From Membranipora membranacea (lineage: Eukaryota; Bryozoa; Gymnolaemata; Cheilostomatida; Membraniporidae), in assembly GCA_914767715.1 (NCBI GenBank), contig OU612069.1, forward strand, positions 11,777,387 through 11,841,386: a stretch of DNA of 64,000 nt. The letters run 5' to 3'. Position numbers and translations under genes: made by a program. The notes below the pieces were generated by a model, which made no database searches, had not been told where the DNA came from, and saw nothing but the letters and a program-made list of their open reading frames with translations. Shown here one piece after another: positions 38,530 to 61,047 of this stretch (positions are counted from its first letter, which is position 1; each line of letters starts with the position of its first letter).

Positions 38530-38533
38530 CCTC
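38530..38533. repeat. Target-site duplication, left copy
   Basis: CCTC directly abuts the left LTR and is repeated directly after the right LTR at 55796-55799. A fifth base (T) also matches, but it may belong to the LTR end, so the duplication is 4 or 5 bp. Confidence 0.8.
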
Positions 38534-38896
38534 TATCAGCATGGAATTTTTGATTTGTTATGGTGAATGAATTTTGTGTTTGATTAATCGGACTGTAATT
38601 TGGAGTTGTTCACTCCTTGTCTCAAATCCCAAATAATAAAATATCCTCCAATTTTCTGTTTTAGAATCCGCGATATGTATGGTTCAAGTAGTGCAAATGT
38701 AATGGTAGCAGATCTGGACTTATAATTGCTGATAATTCGGTTATTAAAGAGAGACTTCCAAAACACAACTGAACTGTTGATCAACAATACCTCAGCGGTA
38801 AGTAGAGCTACTATCGTACAATGTGCGCTAGCCTCAACTACTGAGCACTGGTTTAGATTTGAGTTTGGTGCAATTCTCGGTGGAATTGCTCAAGGA

Positions 38897-38902
38897 TTTA
38901 TT
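38897..38902 (-). terminator. Candidate LTR poly(A) signal
   Basis: Minus-strand AATAAA in the 3' LTR, about 800 bases downstream of the TATA box and 360 from the LTR end. This would give a long R region and a U5 of roughly 350 bases. Confidence 0.45.
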
Positions 38903-39105
38903 TTAAACAATAATAACAAAATATAAATATGGTTCTATTCGTCAGGCAATAAATCAATCAATAATTTTACAATAATATCTTAGCATTTATCATTTAGTCA
39001 TAAAAATACATAAACATTCAAAATCTTTATAATAAGATCTTACCCTTGGTGCAGATGACCTCGAATTCAGTGTGATATTCAGTGTGATATCTCTGTGTAT
39101 TGAAA

Positions 39106-39515
39106 CTATGTTAGACTGGGTTCCTCGCTGTGAGTCGCGGTATATGTATCTCTTTATATCTAAGCTATGTTAGACTAAGTTCCTCGCTGTGAATCGCGGT
39201 ATTTGTATCTAAGCTATGTTAGACTGATTTCCTCGCTGTGAATCGCGGTATTTGCATCTAAGCTATGTTAGACTGATTTCCTCGCTGTGAATCGCGGTAT
39301 TTGTATCTAGGCTATGTTAGACTAGGTTCCTCGCTGTGAATCGCGGTATTTGCATCTAAGCTATGTTAGACTGATTTCCTCGCTGTGAATCGCGGTATTT
39401 GTATCTAGGCTATGTTAGACTAAGTTCCTCGCTGTGAATCGCGGTATATGTATCTCTTTTATCTAAGCTATGTTAGACTAGGTTCCTCGCTGTGAATCGC
39501 GGTATTTGTATCTCT
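39106..39515 (-). repeat. LTR tandem array, eight copies (3' LTR)
   Basis: Eight units of about 49-59 bp share CTATGTTAGACT and CCTCGCTGTGAATCGCGGTA. The array lies downstream of the LTR TATA box on the element strand, so it would be transcribed into the leader of the genomic RNA. The same array is at 53725-54134 in the other LTR. Confidence 0.9.
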
Positions 39516-41066
39516 GTATATCTTGCCAAAAGCTCTGTTGGCTGAATGTGTCTAAAGTTTTTAGACAATTTTCCTCTCTGTAGATGTGCCTCCTTGGGCT
39601 GACTGAATCAGATAATTCTCTGATTAAATCTGTAATGCTGTACGTCGTTAACCCGCTCTCTGGCGCTGACTGATTTTTACAAGTGTCCATCAGGCTTTTA
39701 TAGTGCTGGTTTGCTGTCCTGTTATTGTGCAACGTTTGCATTTACAGGTGTAAAGGTGTTTACCTTGTTATTGGTTTTAGCCTCAATTTCGTCATTACTC
39801 TCTTTTGATTTGCGTGTTTTGTCAGTTTTAATTATCTAGCTGTCAAAACATAGTTAGTCTGTCCTTTGCTTGACCTTCCCTCATTTCTGTTTCGATTATT
39901 TTTAAGTAATTTATGGTGTCAAGTGCACCTGTTTATCCAGGGTGTAATCTGTTGGTTTTCCTGATTTTGCAATCTTTCCAGGGTTGTTTTGAAGATCTTT
40001 AGTGACTTCTATTGCTCGTTATTTTAAAAGTAGCTTATGGTGTCAACTGCACTTGTTTTCTGTGGTGCAATATATTGGTTTTCTAATTTCGCAATCTTTC
40101 CAGGGTTGATTGACGTGCCCAAAGATCTCGTGACTCTGTGGTTATTTTGAAGATGTTTTGTGACTTCTGTTGTTTTCCGTTGTTTGATTCTCCACGGGTT
40201 GTTGCACGTGCCCAGATTTCTCATGGCCCTGTGATTATGTTTTGTTATATTTCAACACGCCCTCAGTGCACCATTCCCTCTATTTACTACAATATTACTA
40301 TTTTCCATTACCATATAGCCTGTGTCTAGATAAATCTCAATAATGATAACCTATGATGTTTAAGCCTAAACTACCCGTCACCATGCACTGAATGCCTAAG
40401 TATGTATCCGTTGGGTCTCAGTTTAAGCTCTTAGTAATAATTGAATTTAAACTAACTTTACTTTGTTTTGTTTTACAGATTATGTGGGTTAATGGTGATA
40501 TCCTGTCTTCACAGTACAGTGTGCAAGCTTAATTATCTAAAGAATACTCTACCACACTACTGTCAGAACTCATCTCATATCTATAACTTTAAAGTCTTTG
40601 GTTCTCATATCATCAATTCGAAGCCAGCGAACAAGCAGCAAAGCTCTCACAACAAGCAGGTCAAGCCTATAATAATCACGCCGAAACAGATCACCATAGC
40701 TATTCAAATTGACAACATGTGGATGACAATGGAACTTATGAGAAAAAAAAATATAATCAGAAACCAGTGCAATTTGTGTTATAATGTCTGGTGACCTAGA
40801 GTTCACCCTTAGTCTTAGTTTTTGACTTTTGCACGCTCATTGTTTTTCTCCGCTTTAGAAACCAATCACCGATAATAGGTGCAGAGGTAATTATTTTTGA
40901 CAGGTGTCATATTTTATGGGAGTTCTAATCCAGCTGATGAGTGGTTATCAATTTTTGTGGTTTCGGTCCAGGGTCTGGTTTATGAAATGTGTTGGTTGAA
41001 TATTAACACGTTATTCACTGCACTGTGTCTTTATATGATATGTGATTGACCTTTAGTTTTGTACTG

Positions 41067-41196
41067 TCGCACTTTTCGGAAATAAAATTTGTTATCCCCG
41101 TTGTCGAAGATTTTTACTGTGTGTGTGTGTGTCCCTCTAATTTTCTTGTATGGTTAATCGTTTGCTGCATCTGACATATCGCACTTTTCGGAAATA
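41067..41196. repeat. 18-bp direct repeat straddling the LTR boundary
   Basis: TCGCACTTTTCGGAAATA occurs inside the LTR edge (41067-41084) and again just outside it (41179-41196), where a polypurine tract would be expected. The right LTR has only the inner copy at the matching offset. Confidence 0.8.
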
Positions 41197-41385
41197 CAAG
41201 TGTCCTCACTTGTTGGTTTCATATGTGGTGAATAAATCATGTTCTTTCCTACAGCTGTCAGCTTCCCTGGTTAATCCCACATGGTTGGAACCGCATTCAC
41301 CACACCGTGTCGGTTCGATCTCTGGTTTCTGTGACCTCAACGCCATCCCCTGTGTTTTTGTCTTCTGGCCTCCATGTCTGTAAGG

Positions 41386-41393
41386 TATAAAAG
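41386..41393 (+). promoter_or_regulatory. TATA box of the antisense RING gene
   Basis: TATAAAAG lies 93 bases before the RING start codon, with an initiator-like TCATTC about 20 bases downstream (41408-41413). It is outside the LTR and on the strand opposite to the element's coding frame. Confidence 0.65.
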
Positions 41394-41485
41394 GTCGATG
41401 TTTCAGATCATTCATTACCCAGCAATCAATACTTGGTACTATTACAGTTTTTCTTCATCTTCTTACTTTTAATTCAACTTTAGTT

Positions 41486-42915
41486 ATGTCTTCGCTTTTT
41501 GAACAATCTTGCGCAATCTGCTGCGCACCCAGTCCAGGGCGACTGACGATATACACGGCATGTGGGCACTTTGTATGTCCCAGGTAATATTCCTAACAGT
41601 AGACGTATGATAATATTCATGTTGTGTCAGTATAGGAGCTGTTGTACTGAATAGTCTTAATAGTTAGCAATAATTTATGTGAATATTTACTTATTGTTTC
41701 TTTTCAATTCCATTCGCTTGTTTTTGTTTCTGTTCATTCACCTAAATTTTTTGTTTGTTTATTTATTTATTTATTTTTTTTTATCTAGGTGCGATGAAAG
41801 GATGATCCTCGGCTTGGTGGAAAGAGCACTTGAACTAAATCATGATTTTGACAGAGCGCTGACCACCACCTGTCCTTTCTGTCGGCGCGGGACAGGGGGG
41901 TCTATTGGTGACACAATGGACCGTGTCACCACCCTGTTGGTGTACATGTATGCGGTGTCCTTGTTTCTGTCGGTGAGTAGATTTTGTTTTGGCGGATGCC
42001 GCAATGACTAAGATAGGTGTAAAAATATGAATGGAGTGGAGAGGAGATGATAACTTGACGCAAAAACAGTCCAGTTTGCTAGAGATTATTACAAGAATAA
42101 GATAAGATAGCATCTGGTGAATATTTAATAAAAAAAAAACTTCATGCTATTATGCTCATTACAATGGGCATATAAAAATCTGACTATTACCATTTGCTAG
42201 CAATATATCCTAATTCGTATGTTTTGATTTCACACACGATTTTTACATATAGTTTTAATTTATCATTTAATATTGCAGAGCTGCAATAAGGATAGCCCTA
42301 ATTCGGTGTTGGGAAGGGCTGGCTATGTTCCTGGGGAACAAGGTTATAACCAGGACATAGCTCGGAGTATCGTTCGGCAGTGGAGATATATCACTAGTTC
42401 TGTGGACACTCTGCTGTCGAGTGGTTTCATCCTGACAGACATCAACAGAAACCCGGCGCTTCAACCCCGATTAACTCGTGCCAACGACGAGAACCTCTGT
42501 AAGTTTGAATTGTTTACAGCCCTGTTAATACAATCTTATAAAATTTAATAGATATTTTTTGTAACTTTTGTTATATGTAATGTAAGCAGTGATCGTAGTC
42601 ATGATCTAACTTCTAATGATTCCCCTCAATTTTTGGGGCATGTTTCCCCTGAGATGCTGTGTAACAATGTAAAATTATATTATAATTATAATGTATTTTG
42701 CAGTTCGTCTCAGCGTGCCTCAGGCCGGAGGAGATATACCTTCCCATAATCTAGTGCAGGCTGGCGTGGATCTTCTTACTGTATTCAATGATAGAGTGGA
42801 GTTGCCAGCCAGCCCGTTTGCACGCATCAGTGAGCAAAACGGTCCCGATAGACGTCAGCGGCGACGACAATGTCGGGGAGTATACGGACGCCGTTGTCGT
42901 CGGGATCCAAGATAA
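41486..42915 (+). CDS. Antisense RING-finger protein carried by the retroelement
   Basis: Four plus-strand exons, 41486-41583, 41789-41972, 42279-42498 and 42704-42915, sum to 714 bases: 237 residues plus stop. All three introns are GT-AG with good donors (GTAATA, GTGAGT, GTAAGT) and pyrimidine-rich acceptors. The N-terminus is a textbook C3HC4 RING: Cys9, Cys12, Cys26, His28, Cys31, Cys34, Cys61, Cys64, with intron 1 falling just before Cys34. A hydrophobic patch (about 78-96) and a region of no known family follow. The C-terminus is strongly basic (RRQRRRQCRG...RRCRRDPR), like a nucleolar or RNA-binding arginine-rich motif. A RING suggests E3 ubiquitin ligase activity; the substrate is unknown. 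The gene lies between the polyprotein stop and the 3' LTR, convergent with the polyprotein, with its own TATA box and poly(A) signal. Confidence 0.85.
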
Positions 42916-42997
42916 AGAACTGATTATTGATCACTGATTATGATTTTTTTTACTTGAATATCCACTCTTGTATTGAAATAACTGTGTTTAGATAAAT

Positions 42998-43003
42998 AAT
43001 AAA
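42998..43003 (+). terminator. Poly(A) signal of the RING gene
   Basis: AATAAA lies 83 bases after the RING stop codon, followed by a GT-rich stretch (TATCTTGTTTCC). It ends 38 bases before the stop codon of the convergent polyprotein, so the two transcripts would overlap tail to tail. Confidence 0.7.
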
Positions 43004-43040
43004 TATGTAATATATCTTGTTTCCTCTAATATGTTGAAAC

Positions 43041-43826
43041 TTATTGCTTTGGCCTGTTGCAAACAAAATAACCAATGTTCACATTTTTATCTGTAATGTA
43101 ACAAGTTGGTTGTTCTAAAAATAACCAGTATCTACATTCTCTTGTCCCTCTGAAGTATTTTATAATTCTTACTCCCTTTTGAAGAATGGTTCTCCTCTCT
43201 TCTTGAGTCAGACTATGTGGTGTCTTGATACCGTAAAGACAATCTTTGTTATCCTTCCTCAATTTTAGCTGTTGTCTTGTGGGTTTGTTGGTTACTTCAT
43301 TGCACTTATTCTCCGATACCGACATAAATTGTATTATTGTGTCTGTAACTTCATAAGTCATTCTAGTTTGATTCCTGTTCACACACTGCTTTCCCAGAGT
43401 TGTTGTATGCTCTCCGATTACTTTACTCACCTCTTCATCATAGGTATTCCATCTTTGTGATACCATTTTATTCCAGCAATCACTCTTTGACATTTCCTGA
43501 TAGTAGATATCTTGTTCCGTCTTTGTTCTTTGGTCACTTCTGTCGCATCTGATTGAGGATATGGTATGTTTTATCCTACATGTTGAGCCTACCATTAAGG
43601 TATTTTTGTTTTCTCTCTGTTGTAACCAGTTTTCATCAATATTGGATACTTCTCCTGTCTGGTTGTACATACTGCAGTTTAAGCTCATGTTTAGTTCTCC
43701 ATTGGTGAGGGTTGATTTTACCCTGTGATTCAACTCGCATATCACGCTGTTCTGTGCGCTAATCGTTGGCAGTATTATACTCAAGGTAATAACACCAATG
43801 CAAAACTTTGTCGAGAAGTTAATATT
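43041..43826 (-). other. C-terminal glycoprotein-like module (Env2) of the polyprotein
   Basis: Residues from about 3070 to the end. A hydrophobic signal-like segment (VITLSIILPTISA) is followed by a Cys-rich region of about 230 residues with N-glycosylation sequons (NMS, NCS, NQT) and a KSDCWNKMV motif. There is no C-terminal membrane anchor. It resembles a viral-type ectodomain without a stalk; the family is not recognised, so the label is by position and features. Confidence 0.55.
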
Positions 43827-46800
43827 ACTCGCCCGGTAATTGTTTTTAATCTTTGTTGTCCTAATGCTGTTGGCGTAATAACAAGGTGGTTCAACTGAAT
43901 TGTTTTCTCTTTCTTCTCCAGATTCAACCATCAACCTTTCATTGTAAAGTGCAGGTCGTCTCCTCCTAAGATTATACCTGCCAGTCGTATCTTCATGTGA
44001 GTTGACATCGTCTCTGAACAAACCCTGATATTCTGCTCTTTCCTGTTGGGTGGCTGATTCAAATGTATTTCCTTGCCCCTCAATATCTGAGTGTTCGTGT
44101 TCTTGTGGTTCAATGTGCTCATCGTGCACTTGAGACTCATCACCATTTTCTGCTCCCTCATCTGCTGAATTTTCTATATCTAATTCTCCTTCTGAACTTG
44201 TCTTCTGGCCTCTCAGCTTATTCTCCTCTGAGTCATCTTTCAGATATTCTTCTTGTATAGCTGCTTTGCATTCCTTGTAGGTTGGTGTGTAGTTTTCTGT
44301 GACAAGTTTAAGTCTTCTGATATTGATCCATTTAGGTTTTGAGTGTGGTGCCACACAAGGTACCAGTTTTGCCATGGTGTCACTTACATCTGTCACTCGG
44401 AACGGTCCTCTGAATTGAGATGTGAGTGCTCTTGATTTTCCCTTTTCTATAGCTGGTCTATACATATAGCAGCGGTCTCCTACTTTGATAATAGGATTGC
44501 TGGCATTTCTATCAAAATATTGTTTGTACCTTTCATTCATCTTGTCGTGTATTTCATACGCATGTTTTATAGCTTCCTGAAGTCTCAAAACCAAGCTTTC
44601 CTTGTAGTCATCAGTGGAGTTTGCCTTCTCATTTACACTGATCGGACTCGCTTCCTGCATTTTGCTAAATAGGGGAATTCTAAAGTCCCTACCATGTGCA
44701 AGGAAAGCTGGTGTGTCGTTCATATGCGAGTTAGATCTGCAAACCGATGTGTTCATTGCAAATACCACTGCCGGCAAATAAAAGTCCCAGTCGTTTTGTG
44801 TTGATGAGGTGTACCCCTGTAGCGCACGTTGTAGAGTTTGTATCCTCCGTTCTACAATGCCGTTTGACCTTGATGAATACGCAAGTGTAAATGCATGATG
44901 AATATCTGTCAACTTCGTCAGTTCGGCCATTAGTTTTGATCTGAAACATGGTCCATTGTCTGATCTGAGTTCGATTGGGAACCCGTAGATTACAAATACT
45001 TTACTAAACAGTGCATACGCTATGGTCTGTGCCTTGAGATCCTTTAGTGGTATGGCAACTACAAGCCTTGTGACTGACTCAACACATACCAGAATGTGTT
45101 TATTCCCGTCCTTAGAGATCTTCAAGTCTTGTAGATTGTCGATTGACCACCTTGCAAATGGACTTGAGATGGGTACATGTCGCATTTCTGGTTTGAGATA
45201 TTTGTTTGGTCTTTTGCAGAGCCCACATGTCTGACAGTCACTTATAAAGGCTTTGACATCGTTGTTCATCGATTTCCAAAAGAAATATCTTGTCAGACTT
45301 GCTGTCGTCTGTATAATACCACGATGTCCTCCACATAAGTCACTGTGGAATGACTGTATTATTCTCCTTCTCATTTTTACAGGTACTACCAGTGTCAATC
45401 GCTTCTCATTTCTGGAGATGTACCACAGCAGGTCTTCTCTCACTTCATATTGTTTTGATGCAGCAATGAAGAGTTTCCTCAATTGTATAGTGAGGTCAAT
45501 ATCTAAGTGTCCAGTTTCCAAATATCGTAACAGAACACCGTAGAAGCTATCTTCCATTATTCCTTGTCTGAATTGGTGTACAAATACCCGGTTCTCCAGT
45601 ATATTCTTCAATTCCCAAATCAGCTCCTCTTTCTTTCGCTTTTCCTGGTCACTTTCTCCCTCAGTCTCCTTATCTTCTTCTTCTAACACATTGATGATTG
45701 CCTTGTGTTTATTTGCAGTTTCCTGCATGATTTGTTGTGTATTCGTCTGTTTTGTCCTTCTTATCCCTTCTCTTCTTATCCTTTCTGAGTCAACTTTTCC
45801 ATTTGTATCAATGACTGGCTGGTTATTTTCCTCATCCTCTTCGCTGTCTGTAACATCCAGTCTTGAAAGACAATCTGCGGCTTTGTTGGCCTCACCTTTT
45901 ATGTGATAGATTGTGACATTCTCGAATTGTCCTAGTCGTGTGGTGAGTTTCACCCTTCTCAGTGATGGTTGTCTGTTATTTTGTAGTATAACCTTTGCAT
46001 CCATACTGTCGGTGTAACAGTGTACCTCGGAGTGCCTTGTAACTGATGACCAGTGTTCTAGACAACATAATAATGCATGTGCTTCCAACTCGTACATTGG
46101 CCAAGCTCTCTCTGCTGCATTGAGCTTCCTTGAAAAATAACCAATCGGATGTAATACTCCTTCATGTCTCTGACTCAGCATACCACCCACACATTGTATA
46201 GAACAATCCGAGTGAACAATGAAAGGTTTTTCCAGGTCAGGATGTGTAATCACCGGTCTTTCAGTTACTGCAGTTTTCAAGCTTTCAAATGACCGTGCCT
46301 CCTTTTCAGTCCATTTGAAAGGGTTCTCCATTTTGAGTAGTTCGGTAAGAGCAGTTGCTTTCTGTGCATAACCTAGAATGCATCTCCTCATGAATCCACA
46401 AAGGCCAAGAAATTGCCTCACCTGTCTACGTGTTTTTAGTGGCTTCATGTTTCTAACTTTCTCAACGTTTCTGTCGTCTGGTGTCATACCTTTCATTGAT
46501 ATCACATGACCTAGGAACTCTACCTTTCGTTGAAAGAAGTGACATTTTGATGGTTTGATCATCAGTCCTCCTATCCTGAACCTGTCAAACAGCTTTCTCA
46601 GATATTCTATGTGTGCCTTGGGATCGTCTGGTGATGCCACTATCCAGTCATCGATATAATTGATGTAGTTTCTCGGGTTGAGGTTTGCCCTTATAACATT
46701 GGTGACCTGGTTAAAGATCCTTGGTGATATGCTACATCCTTGCGGCATTCTTTTCCACGTCATCTGGGGCATTCCATCTATTGCAAATGCCAATTTTGAT

Positions 46801-49800
46801 CTTGATGCAGGGTCGTCTATAGCAATGGAGTAAAATCCTGATGCTGCATCTAAACTGCTAAACAAACTGTTTCCATGCATTTGCCAGTTGATTTCTGCTA
46901 TCCTTGGCAATTGTACGATCTCCTTGTCCAACAATTTATTCAGCTTTCTGTAATCTATCAATAATCTCAAAGAGTTGTCCTTTTTCAGTATCACAAATCC
47001 GGGTGCACACCAGGGTGAGTTTGCATATTCTATTATCCCTGCTTCCATTAGTTCATTTATCAGTTCTTCAGTTTTCCTACGATGTAATGGGTTCAGAGGG
47101 TATGGTTTTGTTGCAACAGGTTGATGTTGGTTTGTATTTATAGTTGGACTGTATAACGGGCTGTGTTTCAAATCTTTGATACCTCCTGTAAGAAACACAT
47201 CTTTGTTTTCGATGATCACGTCTCTTATTTCCTGGCGCATTTGTGGGTTGAATTCATTCCACGGTATGTTTATAGCTTTAATCAGTTCCTCTGTTGTCAT
47301 TTCATCATATCCTGCTCTCGGTATGTAATGCTCTGGCCCGATATCATTTGGATCCTGTAACACATTTTTCTTCTCTGTATTTCTATCTTGTGATTCAAGC
47401 CCCATGACATCTTTTCTTGTATATCTAGTAGCAAGTAGATCGACCATCATCCCATTGATAACCATTACACCCTGTCTTACATCTATCAGTGTCCTGCCAA
47501 AATTCCAGAATGCTCCGAATCCAATCAAGGGTTTAGCCATCTCCTTCCTGCAAACAATGAATGTTAACGTGAATTCTAAGCAACCGATCCTGACATCTGC
47601 TTCTCCACAGTCTAGAATGTTGATTGGATGTCCTCCAAAGCCACATGCTTTCGTAGTTGTGGGTCTTCTATTTCTCAGTAATATTTCTTTTGCCATACTT
47701 TCGTCCAGTAGATGTATGTGAGACCCTGTGTCTAAGAACAAGATTTTGTCGATTTCATTTAATTTACCCATGATATATGGTGCTTTGTAAGGATTTGTTG
47801 TTTCTGTCAGGGTTTCCACTGCAACTTCCTCATGCTCCATTTGGTTATATTCAGCATCGCTCTCGATATACATAACTTGATTCAACATCTCTAATTCCAC
47901 GCCTTCTTCTGATTCCCTGCCTTTTGGTTGCTTATTCCTATGCCTCCCCGGTGATGTCCTCAGAATGTTTCCACTTTCATTTCTCCATATGCTACCGCAC
48001 TGTATTCCCAGTCTTATGACCCCTAGCGTAATTAAGATGTTGCATACTATATTCCATATTGTCATAAATGTAGCCCATCCTGATTTTATGAAGTCGAAGA
48101 AGCTCAATCCCCCCAAGTTGAATGCTTTGGATGAGGTTGGTCCTGTGTTTGGCAAAAGTCCCGCTTTCCTCAGTTGTGTTCTCTCTGATTGTATAGTGCT
48201 CACAAAATCGGTGAGTAATAGATTAGCCCCCGTGTCTAAGTCTGATATCGGGAACAAACCAATCCTCTCCTTGAATAAGTGTAGTTTAGTGTCTTCATAT
48301 ACAGTTTTGGTAAATAATATATCTCTGAGCGTATCATTTTCCATTTCTTTAGCTTTGTTTACTTCATTCTTGTCCCAATGGTACTTGAATAATGTGTTAT
48401 TCAGTTTGAAAAAGGTAAACTCTCCTTTCTCGCAGTTCTTTAGTGGCAGATCTTTGTGTAGAATATTTGTTTTAGGGTCCATCCATAGTGTATGTGTCTT
48501 GTCAAGCTTTTCCTTCACCTTTACTGGTACCCAATTTCCACATTGTATGTCTTGCTCCTCATCAGGTTCATATGATATATTGTAGTGCTTAACTTCCTTG
48601 CACCCATACACTGCAATATCATCTACCGAAATTGGTTCTGCGGCAATGTAGTCATCTTTCAGTAATAATCTGATGGCTCCTGTTGGTTCCATTAACATAA
48701 GTTTGGATATCAATTGCAATGCTAGTTTCTCGTGATTGCACAGTGATCTTACTGAATTCTTGAACATCCGTTGGGTTTGGTTACTGATTTGTAAAGACAG
48801 ATCCGTTGCTACTGCCAGAAATTGTCCAACTAGAAATCGAGCTGTGGCATTTACTGTCAGCAAAAATTCCTTTCTGTGCTTGGTCAAATTCTTCCTGAGA
48901 ATTTCTGTAGTATTATCAATAAATAACCCTTGGTCCGTGTGTATTAACAATAGGTTGGGTTGGCTATTTGGACAAACTTGTACTCTGCCCCAATTTCCTC
49001 TTTTGAAGCTCAATGCCATATCCTGTTCCTCTGACATCCAGAAGTCTCCTTGTAGTTCTCCTTTGACCTTGGTTGCTTTCTTGAATAAACATTTTTCTGT
49101 TGTGTTTCCCTTCCATACAAGCATTCCATTGTCTTGTAATGAACAGCTGAAGTTGTCATATTCACAGTTATCTGTATGTCCTAAGGTTGTTTGCATCACT
49201 GTGCTACCTCTATGATAATATATGTATCCTGGAGTAAGATCATAATTGACTACTTCTTGAGTATGCCAAGCACAACACCATGTGTATTCAGGATCTGTTG
49301 ATTTGTGAGTTGATATCACACCATCCTTTTCCGTCAATTTTTCTCCATATGCTTTCCTGTGTTTTACCATGGTCCAGCATGCCCCTTCTGATACCGGTTC
49401 ATATCGTACTGTTTGATGGTGAGCTCTTTCGTCGCTGAAGAAGTATAGGAAGGTATAGGTAGTTGTTGTTCTTTTGCTGCAGAGAAATGCTTCGTTCTGC
49501 AATATGAGTGATGTTGTTTTATATAACTGTATTTCCAGTGGTGAGATTTCCATTTCATTTTCTTTCGGAATGTCACACTTTATGTCTTTAGGTAGTGACA
49601 ATATTAAGTGTGGTTTTGATCTGCTGTTCAATCCAGTGTTGCATATCATTGGATGGTCTGGATGTCCTTTGGCTGTTTTTATCAGACTACCTATTACTAC
49701 TAATGCTATTGCAATAGTGAGGACGCTTCCAACTGCTCTAAATCCTCCCTTAGACTTGGTTGTTAATGGCGGTACGTCTTCTTTTTCTGCTCCGTTGTAA

Positions 49801-52800
49801 CTGTAATATGTTTCCCTTAGTAGCTCCTCGTCCGGGTCGTACGTTTGCGTTTCCTTGCTCTCCTTGTATTTCTTTTGTTTATGTCCTCTGTGTTTTCTGC
49901 TACGATATCTCTTAGGCTTTGATTTCTCCTGATCAGTTTTTCCTGTCTGCAGTTGTTGTTTACAGGACACACTCGTTACTACTAGGTCTCCATATTTTTT
50001 ATTGACCATATTTGGTCCCTTCTTTAGCTGCCTCCTTCTTTTTGCCTGTGCGTCCCTATCAAACATGGGAGTTATCGGCTCTATCCTTAACATATTGATA
50101 GGGTTAGTTTCTTGCCAATTATCCTCCTCGCTCCATTGTACAAACTTAGTGTGTACAACTTCCTCTAGGCGGTCTTGTGTGTAGGTAGTTCCTGTTTCCT
50201 CATTGGTCATTTCCGGGTTGCTCTCAATTTTACGAGTTTGACTATCAGATCTCTCTTGATTTTGCTTTGCACCGTTTGCCTCATTTACCTTCTCTGCTGT
50301 AAATAGGTATTTTATATCTTCGAGACCTGGGTAAGCTTTGATGGTTAAGTTTTCTAATCTCTGTAGCTCTGCCGTCAACTGATTTCCTTCTAGCCATGGC
50401 TCTTCTTCTGGTAACTCCTCTTCACTGAACCATATATCCTCATCTCTTATTTCGGATGGAAACTGTTTAATCCATTCGTCCAGTTTCACGTCATATTTAC
50501 TTGTAATTTCTGTGTTTGGTTCGCATAATTCACCTTCACTGATCCATCCATCTATGAATCTCTGTATACATGCTTTGTCATCCTCTGGAGTTGTCTGTCC
50601 CTCTGAGTCAGTGGAGACAATTTCTTCTACCTTTTTTGTATATTGATCGCCTGCCTTTGATTCCTTTCCTGTTTGTTTGTGTTTCGCACCACTTTCCTTG
50701 ATCACGTTGTTGGTTACAACTTGTATTTCCGATTCATTATCCTCTTCTATGAATCTTACATAGTTTGTAGGTCTTTGCTGGTTTCCTCCTCTTGGTTGAT
50801 TATTATTTCTATTGTTGTTATTATTCATATTTTGTCTACATGAGTAACTGTGGTGCCCCGTTCTGAAACAGATGTTGCATATTGGACTTGCTTGTACAGA
50901 AAATTGCCCTCCTTCGTGGTTGCGTGCGTAGTCCCTTGCTTGCTGAAATCTATTCCCAGTGTTTCTATCATTTTGTCTTCCGCCATCATGATTATTGCCA
51001 CTTCTCTCATTGTTTTGTGTCCAATAGTTTCTGTTTGATCTATTTTGCTCATTTTGATAAGGTTGCCTATTTTCCCATCTCCTGTATCCATTATTATTTT
51101 GATTCTGATAGTTTCCTTGGAATTGTCTTCTGTTGTAACCACCATTATTGTAGTTATTCCGAGGGTTGTATCCTGTATTGGGTACTCTCATGTTTCTCTC
51201 CCTGTCGGCTTCTTTAACAAGTCGGTCCTCTTTTTCAGCTCTCTCTCTCTCTTTTGCTTGCAGGTCTTTGAGATTTCTCTTTAGACATTCCATCTCTTCG
51301 TCCTTTTTAATTTGATCGGTTAGTTGATTAACCATAGCTGCCACTGGTTGTGCTACATTAGAGGTTCCTTCCTTGAGAAGCATTTCATTTGTCCTCTCAT
51401 ATCTTTGAGCCAGTTTAAATGCTTCTTCTGCTGTGGTTAGATTTTTATTTAGTAACCCACGCTTGAATGATATTGGCAAGCCTGCCAAAAATGTGCCTAA
51501 TATTACCTTATCTCTGGCTGTGTATTCCATATCAGGATAAGTTCTTTTTGCCATTGAAGTTATCACTGCATAAAACTTTCCTATTGATTCAGTTGGAAGC
51601 TTTTGTCTGCTATATAGATCTATTGAAGATGATGTGCCTGCACTCTGGAATTCCTTGTTCAATTCTTGCATTAGTGGCTCATAATCATCCTTCAGTTGTG
51701 GTTGTCTTTCGACTGTATTTTTATATATGACTAACGCTCCATCATTAAGATATAATGGGATTAGTTTGCTCCATGTTGATATAGGTACTGATAATGCTCT
51801 ACATTGTAGCTCATAGTTTTCCTTGAATTCCATCCATGTGATAGCATCGTTTGGAGAGTTTGTCCATTTTTCCATCTCCGGTAGTTTCATAGCTACATTT
51901 ATTATCCCATTATTCATATTTTGATTGGCTTGTGCAGGTTGTTGCCCTCTATTATCTTGTGAAGCATTTTGGAGGCGTGGCCTATCTCTCTCAAATTCTC
52001 TTCTGCGTGCCATGTTATCATTGTACTCCTGGTCTGCGTCATAATAACTGTCATAGTCATTAAACCTCAGTCGTTGTCTGAATGCAGGTCTATAACGCTC
52101 TTCATACCTATTATCTGGATAAGCTTCACGCCTATGGATAATATGATCCTGAGATCTTTTCTCGTCTTGGATTGGGGTATGTTTTATGGTTGTGACTTTG
52201 CTCCTCTCTTCTCCATCAAGTTCTGTACTTATGTATGCTCCCATCCGTTCATGGCTAATATCTCCCTGTCTGGTCTCACTTCTGTGGCTGTCTTTTTCTT
52301 TACTGGCTATCTCTGGATCTCCTTCCTTCCTGATATCAATAGTTTCAGTTGGTGTTCGGCTTCCCCTTCTTCGGAAGGTAACATGATCAAAACTTCTTGG
52401 AATAGGTGTTCTGATATCCTCTCCTTGGTCTGCAGCCGTCTGTCTTAATTTCAGCATCTCTTTTCTTCTAAATTCTTCAAATTGTCTCTCCCTGTCTTCC
52501 AGCTCTATAACCTTTTGTCTGAAATGGTCAATCTCTCTGTCCTGTGAGGCTGCTCTTTCTCTAAGATGTTCAAAATCACGCTCATAAGATATAGCTCTGC
52601 ACCTCAAATCTTCATTATCCTGTTCATATATTCTTGATTTCTGTTTGTATTGGTCTAAATCTTCTTCAAGTCCTCTTGCTCTATACATAATATGATCAAT
52701 TTCTTGTTCTTGTGACTTGAGTCTCTGTGTGAGGAAGGTTTCTCTCTCTTCCCATTCCTCATCTCTTTTTGACGTCTCTTCACGATTCCATTCACTTGTG

Positions 52801-53033
52801 ACTAAATAGTCATTTAAATCACGCTCATGTGCCTTCACTCTGATTTCACTTCTCCCCAAATCCGCATCCATATTGCTGGCTCCCTGTGATGCACTTGCTG
52901 GGTCATCTTGGTCTTTCTGCGTGTCATGTTGGTCCTCTGTGTGACGTTCTGAATCTGCCATCTTTTCTGACTTTTTCTGTTTCTGAACGCCTAGTAATGA
53001 CCACTTTAATGCTGATTTAGCACCTTTAATCAT
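43041..53033 (-). CDS. Gag-Env-like-Pol-Env-like polyprotein of the LTR retroelement
   Basis: One uninterrupted frame of 3330 codons starting at a true ATG (53033), 100 bases below the primer site. In order, with approximate residues: charged coiled coil (70-205); retrotransposon Gag domain (385-545); CCHC zinc knuckle CNICFRTGHHSYSC (719-732); acidic linker (740-1090); envelope-like module with membrane segments at about 1101-1120 and 1652-1676; aspartic protease LFLDTGS (about 1764); RT with MPQG and YIDD (about 2125); RNase H with D-E-D-D set (2270-2390); integrase with HHCC and D-D-E (2560-2760); GPF-type module (about 2880); acidic tail; and a signal-peptide-led glycoprotein-like module (3078-3330). 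The frame encodes the replication and particle proteins of the element. Fusion of everything in one frame, and the place of the first envelope-like module, are unusual. No stop or frameshift is seen. Confidence 0.93.
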   Translation of the reverse strand: MIKGAKSALKWSLLGVQKQKKSEKMADSERHTEDQHDTQKDQDDPASASQGASNMDADLGRSEIRVKAHERDLNDYLVTSEWNREETSKRDEEWEERETFLTQRLKSQEQEIDHIMYRARGLEEDLDQYKQKSRIYEQDNEDLRCRAISYERDFEHLRERAASQDREIDHFRQKVIELEDRERQFEEFRRKEMLKLRQTAADQGEDIRTPIPRSFDHVTFRRRGSRTPTETIDIRKEGDPEIASKEKDSHRSETRQGDISHERMGAYISTELDGEERSKVTTIKHTPIQDEKRSQDHIIHRREAYPDNRYEERYRPAFRQRLRFNDYDSYYDADQEYNDNMARRREFERDRPRLQNASQDNRGQQPAQANQNMNNGIINVAMKLPEMEKWTNSPNDAITWMEFKENYELQCRALSVPISTWSKLIPLYLNDGALVIYKNTVERQPQLKDDYEPLMQELNKEFQSAGTSSSIDLYSRQKLPTESIGKFYAVITSMAKRTYPDMEYTARDKVILGTFLAGLPISFKRGLLNKNLTTAEEAFKLAQRYERTNEMLLKEGTSNVAQPVAAMVNQLTDQIKKDEEMECLKRNLKDLQAKERERAEKEDRLVKEADRERNMRVPNTGYNPRNNYNNGGYNRRQFQGNYQNQNNNGYRRWENRQPYQNEQNRSNRNYWTQNNERSGNNHDGGRQNDRNTGNRFQQARDYARNHEGGQFSVQASPICNICFRTGHHSYSCRQNMNNNNNRNNNQPRGGNQQRPTNYVRFIEEDNESEIQVVTNNVIKESGAKHKQTGKESKAGDQYTKKVEEIVSTDSEGQTTPEDDKACIQRFIDGWISEGELCEPNTEITSKYDVKLDEWIKQFPSEIRDEDIWFSEEELPEEEPWLEGNQLTAELQRLENLTIKAYPGLEDIKYLFTAEKVNEANGAKQNQERSDSQTRKIESNPEMTNEETGTTYTQDRLEEVVHTKFVQWSEEDNWQETNPINMLRIEPITPMFDRDAQAKRRRQLKKGPNMVNKKYGDLVVTSVSCKQQLQTGKTDQEKSKPKRYRSRKHRGHKQKKYKESKETQTYDPDEELLRETYYSYNGAEKEDVPPLTTKSKGGFRAVGSVLTIAIALVVIGSLIKTAKGHPDHPMICNTGLNSRSKPHLILSLPKDIKCDIPKENEMEISPLEIQLYKTTSLILQNEAFLCSKRTTTTYTFLYFFSDERAHHQTVRYEPVSEGACWTMVKHRKAYGEKLTEKDGVISTHKSTDPEYTWCCAWHTQEVVNYDLTPGYIYYHRGSTVMQTTLGHTDNCEYDNFSCSLQDNGMLVWKGNTTEKCLFKKATKVKGELQGDFWMSEEQDMALSFKRGNWGRVQVCPNSQPNLLLIHTDQGLFIDNTTEILRKNLTKHRKEFLLTVNATARFLVGQFLAVATDLSLQISNQTQRMFKNSVRSLCNHEKLALQLISKLMLMEPTGAIRLLLKDDYIAAEPISVDDIAVYGCKEVKHYNISYEPDEEQDIQCGNWVPVKVKEKLDKTHTLWMDPKTNILHKDLPLKNCEKGEFTFFKLNNTLFKYHWDKNEVNKAKEMENDTLRDILFTKTVYEDTKLHLFKERIGLFPISDLDTGANLLLTDFVSTIQSERTQLRKAGLLPNTGPTSSKAFNLGGLSFFDFIKSGWATFMTIWNIVCNILITLGVIRLGIQCGSIWRNESGNILRTSPGRHRNKQPKGRESEEGVELEMLNQVMYIESDAEYNQMEHEEVAVETLTETTNPYKAPYIMGKLNEIDKILFLDTGSHIHLLDESMAKEILLRNRRPTTTKACGFGGHPINILDCGEADVRIGCLEFTLTFIVCRKEMAKPLIGFGAFWNFGRTLIDVRQGVMVINGMMVDLLATRYTRKDVMGLESQDRNTEKKNVLQDPNDIGPEHYIPRAGYDEMTTEELIKAINIPWNEFNPQMRQEIRDVIIENKDVFLTGGIKDLKHSPLYSPTINTNQHQPVATKPYPLNPLHRRKTEELINELMEAGIIEYANSPWCAPGFVILKKDNSLRLLIDYRKLNKLLDKEIVQLPRIAEINWQMHGNSLFSSLDAASGFYSIAIDDPASRSKLAFAIDGMPQMTWKRMPQGCSISPRIFNQVTNVIRANLNPRNYINYIDDWIVASPDDPKAHIEYLRKLFDRFRIGGLMIKPSKCHFFQRKVEFLGHVISMKGMTPDDRNVEKVRNMKPLKTRRQVRQFLGLCGFMRRCILGYAQKATALTELLKMENPFKWTEKEARSFESLKTAVTERPVITHPDLEKPFIVHSDCSIQCVGGMLSQRHEGVLHPIGYFSRKLNAAERAWPMYELEAHALLCCLEHWSSVTRHSEVHCYTDSMDAKVILQNNRQPSLRRVKLTTRLGQFENVTIYHIKGEANKAADCLSRLDVTDSEEDEENNQPVIDTNGKVDSERIRREGIRRTKQTNTQQIMQETANKHKAIINVLEEEDKETEGESDQEKRKKEELIWELKNILENRVFVHQFRQGIMEDSFYGVLLRYLETGHLDIDLTIQLRKLFIAASKQYEVREDLLWYISRNEKRLTLVVPVKMRRRIIQSFHSDLCGGHRGIIQTTASLTRYFFWKSMNNDVKAFISDCQTCGLCKRPNKYLKPEMRHVPISSPFARWSIDNLQDLKISKDGNKHILVCVESVTRLVVAIPLKDLKAQTIAYALFSKVFVIYGFPIELRSDNGPCFRSKLMAELTKLTDIHHAFTLAYSSRSNGIVERRIQTLQRALQGYTSSTQNDWDFYLPAVVFAMNTSVCRSNSHMNDTPAFLAHGRDFRIPLFSKMQEASPISVNEKANSTDDYKESLVLRLQEAIKHAYEIHDKMNERYKQYFDRNASNPIIKVGDRCYMYRPAIEKGKSRALTSQFRGPFRVTDVSDTMAKLVPCVAPHSKPKWINIRRLKLVTENYTPTYKECKAAIQEEYLKDDSEENKLRGQKTSSEGELDIENSADEGAENGDESQVHDEHIEPQEHEHSDIEGQGNTFESATQQERAEYQGLFRDDVNSHEDTTGRYNLRRRRPALYNERLMVESGEERENNSVEPPCYYANSIRTTKIKNNYRASNINFSTKFCIGVITLSIILPTISAQNSVICELNHRVKSTLTNGELNMSLNCSMYNQTGEVSNIDENWLQQRENKNTLMVGSTCRIKHTISSIRCDRSDQRTKTEQDIYYQEMSKSDCWNKMVSQRWNTYDEEVSKVIGEHTTTLGKQCVNRNQTRMTYEVTDTIIQFMSVSENKCNEVTNKPTRQQLKLRKDNKDCLYGIKTPHSLTQEERRTILQKGVRIIKYFRGTRECRYWLFLEQPTCYITDKNVNIGYFVCNRPKQ
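44289..47876 (-). other. Pol region: protease, RT, RNase H, integrase
   Basis: Protease has the DTGS active site. RT shows SLDAASGFYSI, MPQG and YIDD, followed by FLGHVIS, a typical Gypsy-type run. RNase H keeps HSD, YELEAH, YTDS and KAADCLSR acidic residues. The integrase has HSDLCGGH...CQTC zinc-binding residues, then the catalytic Asp in WSIDNL, Asp in RSDNGP and Glu in NGIVERR. A RGPFRV motif near residue 2880 matches the GPY/F module found C-terminal to Gypsy and retroviral integrases. Confidence 0.93.
47904..49751 (-). other. Envelope-like module (Env1) placed between Gag and protease
   Basis: Residues about 1095-1710. It opens with a hydrophobic segment (GSVLTIAIALVVIGSLI), continues with a Cys-containing region of more than 500 residues with several sequons (NFS, NTT, NLT, NAT, NQT, NIS), and ends with a second membrane segment (MTIWNIVCNILITLGVI) before a basic tail. 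A GACWTMV motif resembles the DCWNKMV motif of Env2. The layout is that of a membrane-anchored viral glycoprotein; I cannot name the fusion-protein class. Confidence 0.65.
50754..53033 (-). other. Gag region with N-terminal coiled coil and zinc knuckle
   Basis: Residues 1-760. A long, highly charged heptad-rich stretch (about 70-205) precedes a Gag capsid-like domain containing WMEFKENYELQC and RYERTNEMLLKEG. A basic, Asn/Gly/Arg-rich nucleocapsid part ends with one CX2CX4HX4C knuckle. The coiled coil is a long addition compared with ordinary Gypsy Gag proteins. Confidence 0.85.
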
Positions 53034-53132
53034 AACACCTAAACAAAATGATATGGGTTAACAATACAGATAGTAACAATTATTACCGCTAAATTGTCTA
53101 TTGAGGTGTGGTCAACAGTTCTTTGAGTTCAG

Positions 53133-53149
53133 TCTCGGTAGGACCTCCA
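53133..53149 (-). promoter_or_regulatory. Primer binding site, tRNA-Gln type
   Basis: On the element strand, TGGAGGTCCTACCGAGA begins 3 bases after the 5' LTR. It is complementary to a tRNA 3' end ending TCTCGGTAGGACCTCCA, which has the U73 discriminator and T-arm typical of metazoan tRNA-Gln. Complementarity continues into the T loop (plus strand GAGTTCAG). Confidence 0.8.
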
Positions 53150-53724
53150 ATTTATCAGCATGGAATTTTTGATTTGTTATGGTGAATGAATTTTGTGTTT
53201 GATTAATCGGACTGTAATTTGGAGTTGTTCACTCCTTGTCTCAAATCCCAAATAATAAAATATCCTCCAATTTTCTGTTTTAGAATCCGCGATATGTATG
53301 GTTCAAGTAGTGCAAATGTAATGGTAGCAGATCTGGACTTATAATTGCTGATAATTCGGTTATTAAAGAGAGACTTCCAAAACACAACTGAACTGTTGAT
53401 CAACAATACCTCAGCGGTAAGTAGAGCTACTATCGTACAATGTGCGCTAGCCTCAACTACTGAGCACTGGTTTAGATTTGAGTTTGGTGCAATTCTCGGT
53501 GGAATTGCTCAAGGATTTATTTTAAACAATAATAACAAAATATAAATATGGTTCTATTCGTCAGGCAATAAATCAATCAATAATTTTACAATAATATCTT
53601 AGCATTTATCATTTAGTCATAAAAATACATAAACATTCAAAATCTTTATAATAAGATCTTACCCTTGGTGCAGATGACCTCGAATTCAGTGTGATATTCA
53701 GTGTGATATCTCTGTGTATTGAAA

Positions 53725-54134
53725 CTATGTTAGACTGGGTTCCTCGCTGTGAGTCGCGGTATATGTATCTCTTTATATCTAAGCTATGTTAGACTAAGTT
53801 CCTCGCTGTGAATCGCGGTATTTGTATCTAAGCTATGTTAGACTGATTTCCTCGCTGTGAATCGCGGTATTTGCATCTAAGCTATGTTAGACTGATTTCC
53901 TCGCTGTGAATCGCGGTATTTGTATCTAGGCTATGTTAGACTAGGTTCCTCGCTGTGAATCGCGGTATTTGCATCTAAGCTATGTTAGACTGATTTCCTC
54001 GCTGTGAATCGCGGTATTTGTATCTAGGCTATGTTAGACTAAGTTCCTCGCTGTGAATCGCGGTATATGTATCTCTTTTATCTAAGCTATGTTAGACTAG
54101 GTTCCTCGCTGTGAATCGCGGTATTTGTATCTCT
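53725..54134 (-). repeat. LTR tandem array, eight copies (5' LTR)
   Basis: Counterpart of 39106-39515, with the same order of unit variants. Being downstream of the TATA box, it should form part of the long structured leader ahead of the primer site. Confidence 0.9.
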
Positions 54135-54313
54135 GTATATCTTGCCAAAAGCTCTGTTGGCTGAATGTGTCTAAAGTTTTTAGACAATTTTCCTCTCTGT
54201 AGATGTGCCTCCTTGGGCTGACTGAATCAGATAATTCTCTGATTAAATCTGTAATGCTGTACGTCGTTAACCCGCTCTCTGGCGCTGACTGATTTTTACA
54301 AGTGTCCATCAGG

Positions 54314-54321
54314 CTTTTATA
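54314..54321 (-). promoter_or_regulatory. LTR TATA box driving the genomic RNA
   Basis: TATAAAAG on the minus strand, about 1475 bases into the LTR from its TGTCAG end. It implies U3 of about 1.5 kb and a long transcribed leader. Confidence 0.55.
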
Positions 54322-55795
54322 GTGCTGGTTTGCTGTCCTGTTATTGTGCAACGTTTGCATTTACAGGTGTAAAGGTGTTTACCTTGTTATTGGTTTTAGC
54401 CTCAATTTCGTCATTACTCTCTTTTGATTTGCGTGTTTTGTCAGTTTTAATTATCTAGCTGTCAAAACATAGTTAGTCTGTCCTTTGCTTGACCTTCCCT
54501 CATTTCTGTTTCGATTATTTTTAAGTAATTTATGGTGTCAAGTGCACCTGTTTATCCAGGGTGTAATCTGTTGGTTTTCCTGATTTTGCAATCTTTCCAG
54601 GGTTGTTTTGAAGATCTTTAGTGACTTCTATTGCTCGTTATTTTAAAAGTAGCTTATGGTGTCAACTGCACTTGTTTTCTGTGGTGCAATATATTGGTTT
54701 TCTAATTTCGCAATCTTTCCAGGGTTGATTGACGTGCCCAAAGATCTCGTGACTCTGTGGTTATTTTGAAGATGTTTTGTGACTTCTGTTGTTTTCCGTT
54801 GTTTGATTCTCCACGGGTTGTTGCACGTGCCCAGATTTCTCATGGCCCTGTGATTATGTTTTGTTATATTTCAACACGCCCTCAGTGCACCATTCCCTCT
54901 ATTTACTACAATATTACTATTTTCCATTACCATATAGCCTGTGTCTAGATAAATCTCAATAATGATAACCTATGATGTTTAAGCCTAAACTACCCGTCAC
55001 CATGCACTGAATGCCTAAGTATGTATCCGTTGGGTCTCAGTTTAAGCTCTTAGTAATAATTGAATTTAAACTAACTTTACTTTGTTTTGTTTTACAGATT
55101 ATGTGGGTTAATGGTGATATCCTGTCTTCACAGTACAGTGTGCAAGCTTAATTATCTAAAGAATACTCTACCACACTACTGTCAGAACTCATCTCATATC
55201 TATAACTTTAAAGTCTTTGGTTCTCATATCATCAATTCGAAGCCAGCGAACAAGCAGCAAAGCTCTCACAACAAGCAGGTCAAGCCTATAATAATCACGC
55301 CGAAACAGATCACCATAGCTATTCAAATTGACAACATGTGGATGACAATGGAACTTATGAGAAAAAAAAATATAATCAGAAACCAGTGCAATTTGTGTTA
55401 TAATGTCTGGTGACCTAGAGTTCACCCTTAGTCTTAGTTTTTGACTTTTGCACGCTCATTGTTTTTCTCCGCTTTAGAAACCAATCACCGATAATAGGTG
55501 CAGAGGTAATTATTTTTGACAGGTGTCATATTTTATGGGAGTTCTAATCCAGCTGATGAGTGGTTATCAATTTTTGTGGTTTCGGTCCAGGGTCTGGTTT
55601 ATGAAATGTGTTGGTTGAATATTAACACGTTATTCACTGCACTGTGTCTTTATATGATATGTGATTGACCTTTAGTTTTGTACTGTCGCACTTTTCGGAA
55701 ATAAAATTTGTTATCCCCGTTGTCGAAGATTTTTACTGTGTGTGTGTGTGTCCCTCTAATTTTCTTGTATGGTTAATCGTTTGCTGCATCTGACA

Positions 55796-55799
55796 CCTC
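55796..55799. repeat. Target-site duplication, right copy
   Basis: CCTC (plus a following T) matches the bases bordering the left LTR at 38530-38533. Confidence 0.8.
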
Positions 55800-58399
55800 T
55801 ACTCTAGAGCCAATAACTATCTGTGTTTCAGACTTGTCTCCATCTGCTGTTCCAGTTTATGTCAGAGGTAGCTGGACCACAAAAACCTATTTTGGAATGT
55901 TAGCAGATTGAGTTGTAATTTTGGGGCACCCTTCCCTGAATCTATTGCTTGGAAATGGCAAAAGGTTGTTGAAAAACTCCCTCCCATGTATTTACACATA
56001 ATACAAATTATATAAAAGATTAATGGATTAAAAAGGACATTGTGTTCTGATAAAGTTGAGACTCTTGTCTTTAGATAAACATAGGTGATAGGATATCAAA
56101 ACAACGTACCAAGATTTTCTTGAATCTCTCTGTACACTTTTTGTTGCACATCAGGATATAGTACCATAATAGGGACCATCCAGTAGAGGGCCGTGGCTGT
56201 CGTCTCAGTACCTCCGAGATACAGGCCTGTCACCTGATACAACAGGTGTCTGTCTGTGAGAAACAAAATAAGGACATCGCTAAAAACATTTTGTTAACAC
56301 GATTTTCGATTGAGATGTGTTCTCTTTCTTTTTCATGATGATCATCACTTTAATTTATTCATTTTATTCTCATCTTGAAAATTGCCATCAACAATGTGCC
56401 AAGCAATAAGGGGATGAAAATTAAGTTGATGGACAAACTTTTAGCAGTCAGCTTCGATCTGGCATGTTATTGTAAGTCTAATAATATGTTCTGTTTTTTT
56501 GACTTGTCCTCATTTATCACGTTCACAATTGTAAACTAGTTGAGCAAAAAACTTCATCGTTGAGTCTTAGATGGACTGATGGATACTAATGATGTGAAGG
56601 GACTAAGTAGACCTTCATCATCTGTCTCAAAACAACACCATCAGACAGGTTGAGAAACTTAATATTTGTCTTCTCCAAATTCAGGAAACTGCCAGCACGT
56701 ATAAATTTTACCGGGGAGTCTGTCCAAAGCTCCCTGATTTTGCATTGTTGGTCAGGTTCGACATTATGTTGATTCGGAGTTGCACCCCCACGACACTAGA
56801 AGCGACAACCTCTTATAAGGTCTTATAATGTACCTTGACACATAAAAATTGTCGTACCACATTGAATATGAAACATGACAGTTTTCCTTTAACAGCAGGT
56901 GTGATATTCTCACCTTCAAATACAGTATCTGGGTTGTCCTGATGCTGATGCTGCTGTTGTAAAAAGGCATCAATGAAATCTCTCAGTGGATTTTCATATA
57001 TGATGTCCTTACGATGCTGCTGTATTTCACCAATAGCAACTCTAACTCCATTGTCCTTTTTAATCTTGGCTTCTTTGAATGCTGGGAAATACTGAAACAA
57101 AACATGGTAATATTTAATGTGTGAATTCTTACTGAAATTTTCTGAATACTACTTCTCAGCCACTAAATGAAGGATGGGTATGGGTGCCTTACATCAAGTA
57201 GGGTGTGAAAAACATATCCCACAATGCCATTCTCTGCCACTTCATAGGTGAGCTGGCCAATAATTACGAATGATACAGTTAGGATTAAATGACCTTTTTT
57301 GTTTCGCATAAGCATTGGTAGAATGCAGCCATCTTACATCTTGCCAGCTTAGTTAGGATGTTGCTAGGTTTCAAAAGAGCGATAGACTCAGCAACAAAAA
57401 TCATACATTAAATCAGGTCCGACAATTTTATACAGAAGCTAGTTTTCAACCACATCGAGAGAACAGGAGTGAAATGTCAAACAGCCTTTCTGAGTTGGCT
57501 ATTATTGATTGACCTTCCCTTGAGATTACCTTCACTAGAGGAATATATCTTGATCTCAGTCTAAACCCTGCATACACACTGAACTGTACATCAGCTAGTC
57601 TCTTGTCATCATACTCGAACCGATCTCCGAATATGACTGTAGTTATCACATTTGAGGTAGCTTTTGATATGAGTTTTTCTAGATCAATCGGCTGACCAAT
57701 GGAATCCTCTAATTCTCCAACTACATGTGCTAGCTCATCATGAATGATTGGCTCTATGCCTTTTCCAACTGTTATGACAGAACAAATAAAATTAACATTC
57801 AAAGATATGATCTTGTCATTACCTTTGCACTATTAAAGGTGCTTCAGTGCAAAGATGCTGAGTTGTTGCCACATGGACAGATCTATTAGTGGAAGACCCA
57901 TCTGTCTTAGGTGTCAAATGAAATCCCATTTGACTATGGAAAAGTATGCAGACACGCAATTAGTGCCGAGACTTGGGTTCCGATCTCATTTGGGAGATTT
58001 CTAGCTCCTGCCTTTAGCTCCTGCATCCGGTAGATACCAACTTACTGTTTGGTAAAGGACAGAATATTAGGCTGGTCCTGAAGAGGGTCTCAAGGTGCCC
58101 TAAACCCTTCCACTAAGTGTGTGATGCACCCTTGAAATTTGAGGCAATAACAAGCCTGCGAAACTGAAGCTGGCACTAACCAGCTTACAGCAGTGACATT
58201 TTGATCTTAACCATTTGGCTGCGAAGCGGGTGCCTACCAACAGACCTTTTTCCTATCTACTGATATACTGAACTCCCCCATGCCATGTTCTTTGAATACT
58301 GACAGCATATGTCTCCTCTGCTGCTGCCATCGACCGTGTGGTTCAGGTTCTCCTGTCTCTGGATAATAGAAAGACAAAACAGAGTCATAATTAAAAGCA

Positions 58400-60977: not shown

Positions 60978-61047
60978 AATGTTTTGTAAAACACTCATAT
61001 TATTTTGTGATTAAACTAGTTTTTTTCATTTGTGTCGTAGCCTCTTT

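Follow-up and report, generated by a model that had tools for sequence, protein, structure and literature searches.

A predicted four-exon RING gene lies antisense between the coding frame and the 3′ LTR of a retroelement in the bryozoan Membranipora membranacea

Antisense open reading frames (ORFs) between pol and the 3′ LTR are described for the plant elements Grande (gene23), RIRE2 and Retand (TRP28) and for the fungal element Boty, and are kept in most copies of a family, according to the main texts of two reports (PMC7264820, PMC11963269); an upstream promoter of its own is reported for Grande gene23 (PMC7264820, main text). The antisense transcripts of HTLV, STLV and BLV are spliced, and in the HTLV and BLV cases transcription starts in the 3′ LTR and the products are bZIP or other proteins (PMC10186651, in the portions available). 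The LTR elements of bdelloid rotifers carry additional genes after pol, a captured ORF3 of env, DEDDy, GDSL, CC or TM type (PMC5408684, main text). A chuvirus-type glycoprotein is present in the LTR element Anakin (PMC12440569, in the portions available; see also PMC7642597).

The gene described here resembles the plant and fungal antisense ORFs in its location between pol and the 3′ LTR and in lying on the strand opposite to gag-pol, both at the locus under study and in copies on contigs C4 and C7. The plant and fungal systems differ in being described as ORFs and in encoding unrelated proteins (TRP28, Smc), and neither an intron nor a RING is mentioned in the main texts of PMC7264820 and PMC11963269. 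With HTLV-1 HBZ, HTLV-2 APH-2 and BLV it shares the character of an antisense accessory gene or transcript that is spliced, here by prediction (PMC10186651, portions available). Unlike the HBZ type, it has four exons and its TATA box at 41386 is outside the LTR, 210 bp beyond the LTR end at 41176. An invertebrate host and additional genes after pol are common to this element and those of bdelloid rotifers; in the main text of PMC5408684 neither ‘intron’ nor ‘ring’ appears, and the single ‘antisense’ refers to small RNAs. The earlier note on this DNA knew of no multi-exon RING example of this kind. As a claim of novelty this was overstated, since antisense accessory genes (Retand, Grande) and spliced HTLV HBZ are known, but the multi-exon RING case itself is without found precedent: the literature searched, which covers subscription journals thinly, yielded no LTR element described with an antisense gene that encodes a RING or has several exons.

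The window, a stretch of 64,000 nucleotides, lies on contig C5 of the searched genome (339 Mb, 18 contigs). It contains an LTR retroelement with the following features.

38535–55795, minus strand: LTR retroelement, 17,261 bp, in a cytochrome P450 intron (LTRs, target-site duplication, P450 exons on both sides)
38530–38534 (left) and 55796–55800 (right), unstranded: target-site duplication CCTCT (5-bp duplication)
53154–55795, minus strand: 5′ LTR, 2642 bp, TGTCAG...CTGAT, 100% identical to the 3′ LTR
38535–41176, minus strand: 3′ LTR, 2642 bp, identical to the 5′ LTR
53133–53149, minus strand: probable primer binding site TGGAGGTCCTACCGAGA, directly after the 5′ LTR, tRNA-type
43041–53033, minus strand: single open frame, 3330 aa (ORF list and Pfam)
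47934–49748, minus strand: glycoprotein-like segment in the gag-to-protease interval, hydrophobic stretches near both ends (Pfam, hydropathy)
43044–43853, minus strand: gp2, the C-terminal membrane/Cys-rich segment of the ORF (hydropathy)

The open frames flanking the element cover adjacent stretches of the cytochrome P450 profile (258–308 at 56.1 kb and 308–379 at 38.1 kb), and the element thus sits in a P450 intron. The primer binding site is presumably tRNA-Gln-like. The 3330-aa ORF comprises, in order, a coiled-coil-like N-terminus, gag, CCHC, the glycoprotein-like segment, protease, RT, RNase H, IN and the second membrane/Cys-rich segment. The Pfam matches for RT, RNase H, H2C2 and rve are above cutoff, those for gag and CCHC below, and what we take to be the protease is assigned by motif alone. 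The PR–RT–RNase H–IN order (protease by motif only) and a target-site duplication within 4–6 bp are those of the Ty3/Gypsy type. Membership of Troyka was considered and rejected; the 5-bp duplication and TG..AT termini of the element differ from the 3-bp duplication and CG..CG termini of Troyka (PMC12440569, portions available). The glycoprotein-like segment matches Pfam Monjiviricetes_fusion with E 4.9e-5 and 21.9 bits, below the cutoff of 27, and no solved relative was found by sequence. With Anakin the element shares a glycoprotein of chuvirus type, here as a weak match; the segment lies between gag and protease in one frame. We note that this order, a chuvirus-type fusion-like segment (of weak similarity) between gag and protease in one polyprotein, is unusual and is shared with a related element described below. 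The LTR contains an array of 49-bp tandem repeats (39104–39495 and the matching stretch of the 5′ LTR), and its stretch 1055–1144 is repeated in other LTR copies too. Outside the element, a 176-aa ORF at 61030–61560 on the plus strand has no Pfam match.

The RING gene is modelled on the plus strand as follows.

41386–41394, plus strand: TATA box TATAAAAG, putative promoter (sequence motif)
41486–41583, plus strand: exon 1 (spliced translation)
41789–41972, plus strand: exon 2 (spliced translation)
42279–42498, plus strand: exon 3 (spliced translation)
42704–42915, plus strand: exon 4, Arg-rich C-terminus, TAA (spliced translation)
42998–43003, plus strand: poly(A) signal AATAAA (sequence motif)

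The four exons join into 237 codons and a stop, as the earlier note had read them, and the gene lies where it was placed, antisense between the end of the retroelement ORF and the 3′ LTR; the TATA box and AATAAA stand at the two ends then given for the locus, 41386 and 42998–43003. All three introns, of 205, 306 and 205 bp, have GT..AG ends, in phases 2, 0 and 1, and the G+C content is 0.50–0.54 in the exons against 0.25–0.31 in the introns. None of 20,000 shuffled coding sequences stayed open. The RING assignment stands on the ligand pattern, C-x2-C...C-x-H-x2-C-x2-C...C-P-x-C, which is of C3HC4 type and is completed only when exons 1 and 2 are joined across intron 1. It does not extend to a Pfam score above the curated cutoff: matches are weak, the best being zf-C3HC4_3 (E 2.8e-4, 21.1 bits against a cutoff of 27). 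E2-binding RINGs typically have the C-x-I-C and C-P-x-C-R motifs seen here. The tail contains RRQRRR and more arginines, which suggests nuclear or RNA association. No convincing relative was found among solved structures (best E 0.11), and no viral relative was confirmed in viral contigs with either the RING or the RT piece as query. The gene is tail to tail with the opposite-strand ORF (53033–43041). The modelled transcript terminates before the ORF stop at 43041, so that its complementarity to the genomic RNA would be confined to the 3′ untranslated part.

A search of the animal's own genome with the RING protein gave 16 matches from 15 candidates, which fall into five loci: the window, C4:8.12 Mb, C7:15.31 Mb (two fragments), C7:3.49 Mb and C5:25.59 Mb. 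The gene is complete only in the window; no other intact locus was found among these 16 matches. At C4:8.12 Mb exons 2–4 are open and exon 1 is missing from a rearranged composite, the copies at C7:15.31 and C7:3.49 Mb are broken, and that at C5:25.59 Mb is 39–42% identical with an in-frame stop in exon 1. Where the end of the ORF is retained (window, C4:8.12 Mb and C7:15.318 Mb) the RING gene is antisense beside it in all three; in the C7:15.318 Mb copy, which is older and about 80% identical, this ORF end amounts to 115 bp at 81%. No element sequence except the RING gene was found in the 30 kb of sequence around C7:3.49 or around C5:25.59 Mb. In the four further loci introns occupy corresponding positions wherever sequence survives, and GT or AG is kept at 16 of the 17 surviving splice sites (C4, the two C7:15.31 fragments and C7:3.49). 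Gene and orientation are shared by the window and two other copies, and no clean intron loss was found at any of the five loci of this gene. The composite at C4:8108584–8124826 joins a left part of gag-only type to a right part with the RING gene and the 3′ half of the ORF, and holds the RT and IN of another retroelement inside (25–28% identity). Between the two RING fragments on C7 lies part of a Polinton-like DNA polymerase B, accompanied by zinc fingers (C7:15310667–15313000, L011:667–3000; Pfam DNA_pol_B_2 E 2e-5, just below cutoff).

Identical LTRs imply that the present copy came through RNA, with the caveat of gene conversion between LTRs. Since this recent insertion nonetheless has three introns, these would have passed through the RNA of the element; on the usual reading of identical LTRs, the introns survived at least one RNA cycle. 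The genomic RNA corresponds to the minus strand. There the introns read CT..AC, so that splicing is not expected, and the gene's poly(A) signal should likewise be silent. We consider it probable that the RING gene resides in the element as an accessory gene with its own TATA promoter, spliced, and copied because its introns are unreadable in the genomic RNA. Its transcription would start at that promoter, on the opposite strand to the genomic RNA, and splicing would follow as in an ordinary gene; its introns, present in the genomic RNA as their complement, would stay unspliced and be copied along with the element. Orientation, rather than export of unspliced RNA, would protect them. The protein may be a nuclear RING ubiquitin ligase directed against a host defence or silencing factor, or against RNA or proteins of the element itself. 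A counter-defence or regulatory role is suggested by HBZ-like regulators and by RING proteins of viruses. In Giardia, overlap of sense and antisense is reported to be linked to intron retention (PMC6545626).

A related element (element 2, C7:15.321–15.329 Mb; RT 39%) has its glycoprotein segment, C7:15325049–15326773, between gag and protease, and carries two overlapping opposite-strand genes after pol at C7:15319355–15320924 (L012/L011), each with an intron and AATAAA. Of the exons of the antisense gene, one looks by eye like a signal peptide, one is CPxxCxC/Thr-rich and one is transmembrane; the phases are 0 and 1. The sense gene, which has a single intron, shows TATAAAAGG, a RING scoring 28.2 where the Pfam cutoff is 27.3, and a second exon that is Arg-rich. 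The 3′ limit of element 2 is uncertain, as the searches yielded no LTR for it. Used as a query, its RING protein produced 14 matches (21 candidates): element 2 itself, four other places at 64–77%, one at 47% and seven weaker at 25–40%. The seven cluster at C7:4.64–4.75 Mb, most with stops, and could be host RING genes. At one of the four places, C7:15146524–15146757 (L050), a relic of the sense RING gene lacks the intron, its frame continuing through the exon junction, and is otherwise broken; a short in-frame repeat stands just before the junction, and two copies of another repeat flank the relic. Two others of the four comprise exon 2 with 12–23 bp of intron-side sequence, with no exon 1 found in the 4 kb of sequence covered.

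The intronless relic and the sense gene bear on whether orientation is what matters. The RING gene could belong to the element while its introns persist through retrovirus-like export and packaging of unspliced full-length RNA. Retroviral genomes keep sense introns, and element 2, whose RING gene is sense yet intron-bearing, indicates that antisense orientation is not strictly required. We nevertheless regard this as unlikely, because an intronless sense relic at C7:15146524–15146757 stands against no clean loss at the five loci of the gene found in antisense. Intron loss in that relic is what sense orientation predicts, although a processed copy made by a LINE would be an alternative source. 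The passage of the introns through RNA is supported, given the usual reading of the LTRs, and orientation is a candidate for what preserves them: a sense RING gene that keeps its intron and an intronless relic both occur.

Elements at C4:7.56 and C8:25.58 Mb (97% alike) have an antisense intron-bearing membrane-protein gene in the same zone, the first exon of which was not found. It is 27% identical to the antisense membrane gene of element 2 (score 84 against 32 ± 6 for shuffles, reached by 0 of 1000), with an intron in the same phase. Homology of the two RING genes, in the window and in element 2, was not accepted; only the RING motif aligns (E 0.003) and the intron positions differ, and they are treated as separate acquisitions or as very diverged. 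In the distant LTR families L042–L048 no cargo was found by a RING-motif scan, which would miss an intron-split RING, or by tblastn with the relatives' three accessory proteins and the window RING; L043 and L047, which have no match to the element's protein pieces, say little on cargo. In this lineage the zone between pol and the 3′ LTR seems to serve for cargo, since other intron-bearing genes occupy it in two relatives. The use of this zone by relatives for genes with predicted introns is new here.

The element itself is unevenly represented in the genome. Its LTR is abundant, with at least 117 matches at about 40 loci (40 of 191 candidates scored), and gag is found at 97–100% in five places and decayed elsewhere. 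The RT piece matches only the window among the matches scored, the next of 106 (800 candidates) being 39% identical, and gp2 was found at the window and C4 only (3 matches from 4 candidates in the genome search). The RING gene is absent from three of the five gag-bearing copies at 97–100% (one read, two inferred), and pol is absent from them too. In the copy that was read, at C1:31.31 Mb, the LTRs are 8.9 kb apart; gag is kept together with the beginning of the glycoprotein segment, everything from protease to the RING gene is gone, and another insertion lies within gag. The copies at C6:4.63 and C7:21.96 Mb have frames some 1215 aa long, and the genome searches gave no match there to RT, gp2 or the RING gene, from which we infer deletion derivatives of the same kind. 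The earlier note named full-length copies without the gene as evidence against it. LTR-bearing copies that lack it do exist, but the one read is a deletion derivative without pol; as far as these copies have been seen, the RING gene appears to be missing where pol is missing. The three (C1:31310629–31322237, C6:4633632, C7:21960543) form a candidate non-autonomous gag-bearing family that spreads the LTR without a pol match.

The low copy number of the RING gene, which is complete only in the window, would fit a host gene that was caught once, when a neighbouring locus recombined or was read through, and that is useless to the element. Exon G+C of about 0.52 against 0.40 in the ORF points to a foreign origin, and two RING relics have no element sequence nearby. 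Yet the gene occupies the same antisense place, next to ORF C-terminal sequence, in the C4 and the older C7 copy. The present host locus is a P450 gene, so that an origin at the window locus is not borne out, and no intact chromosomal source was found. Position inside the target-site duplications, the P450 flanks and an arrangement shared by two other copies support the gene as part of the element. Selection also argues against a passenger. Gapped codons and codons with a stop in either sequence were skipped, and dN/dS of the window gene was 0.34 (bootstrap 0.18–0.64) and 0.22 (0.13–0.37) against the C7:15.31 fragments and 0.31 (0.21–0.46) against the C7:3.49 fragment, values that the relics' own decay raises. 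Against C4, the youngest other copy, it was 0.45 (0.16–1.52), indistinguishable from 1. The proposed purifying selection thus holds for three decayed fragments from two loci (0.22–0.34) and not for the comparison with C4. As judged from the decayed fragments, the predicted RING protein is under constraint. A chance passenger is on this evidence quite improbable.

Least probable of all, and very much so, is an antisense transcript acting mainly as regulatory or double-stranded RNA with the protein secondary, as proposed for antisense ORFs of plant elements (PMC7264820, main text) and compatible with its predicted complementarity to untranslated genomic RNA, because constraint acts at the protein level and the RING ligands are completed by splicing.

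Laboratory retroelement reporters use antisense-intron cassettes. As a resident accessory gene, the RING gene would be their natural counterpart, and would show a way for a parasite copied through RNA to keep ordinary intron-bearing genes. More tentatively, and with considerable doubt, elements of this lineage may have acquired RING anti-defence proteins on two or more occasions and a mucin-like membrane protein on one, with placement in antisense as a generally applicable way of taking genes with introns through an RNA genome. The antisense and the sense RING gene in one genome provide a testable pair for whether orientation decides intron survival, and RING accessory proteins of LTR elements would be candidates for counter-defence.
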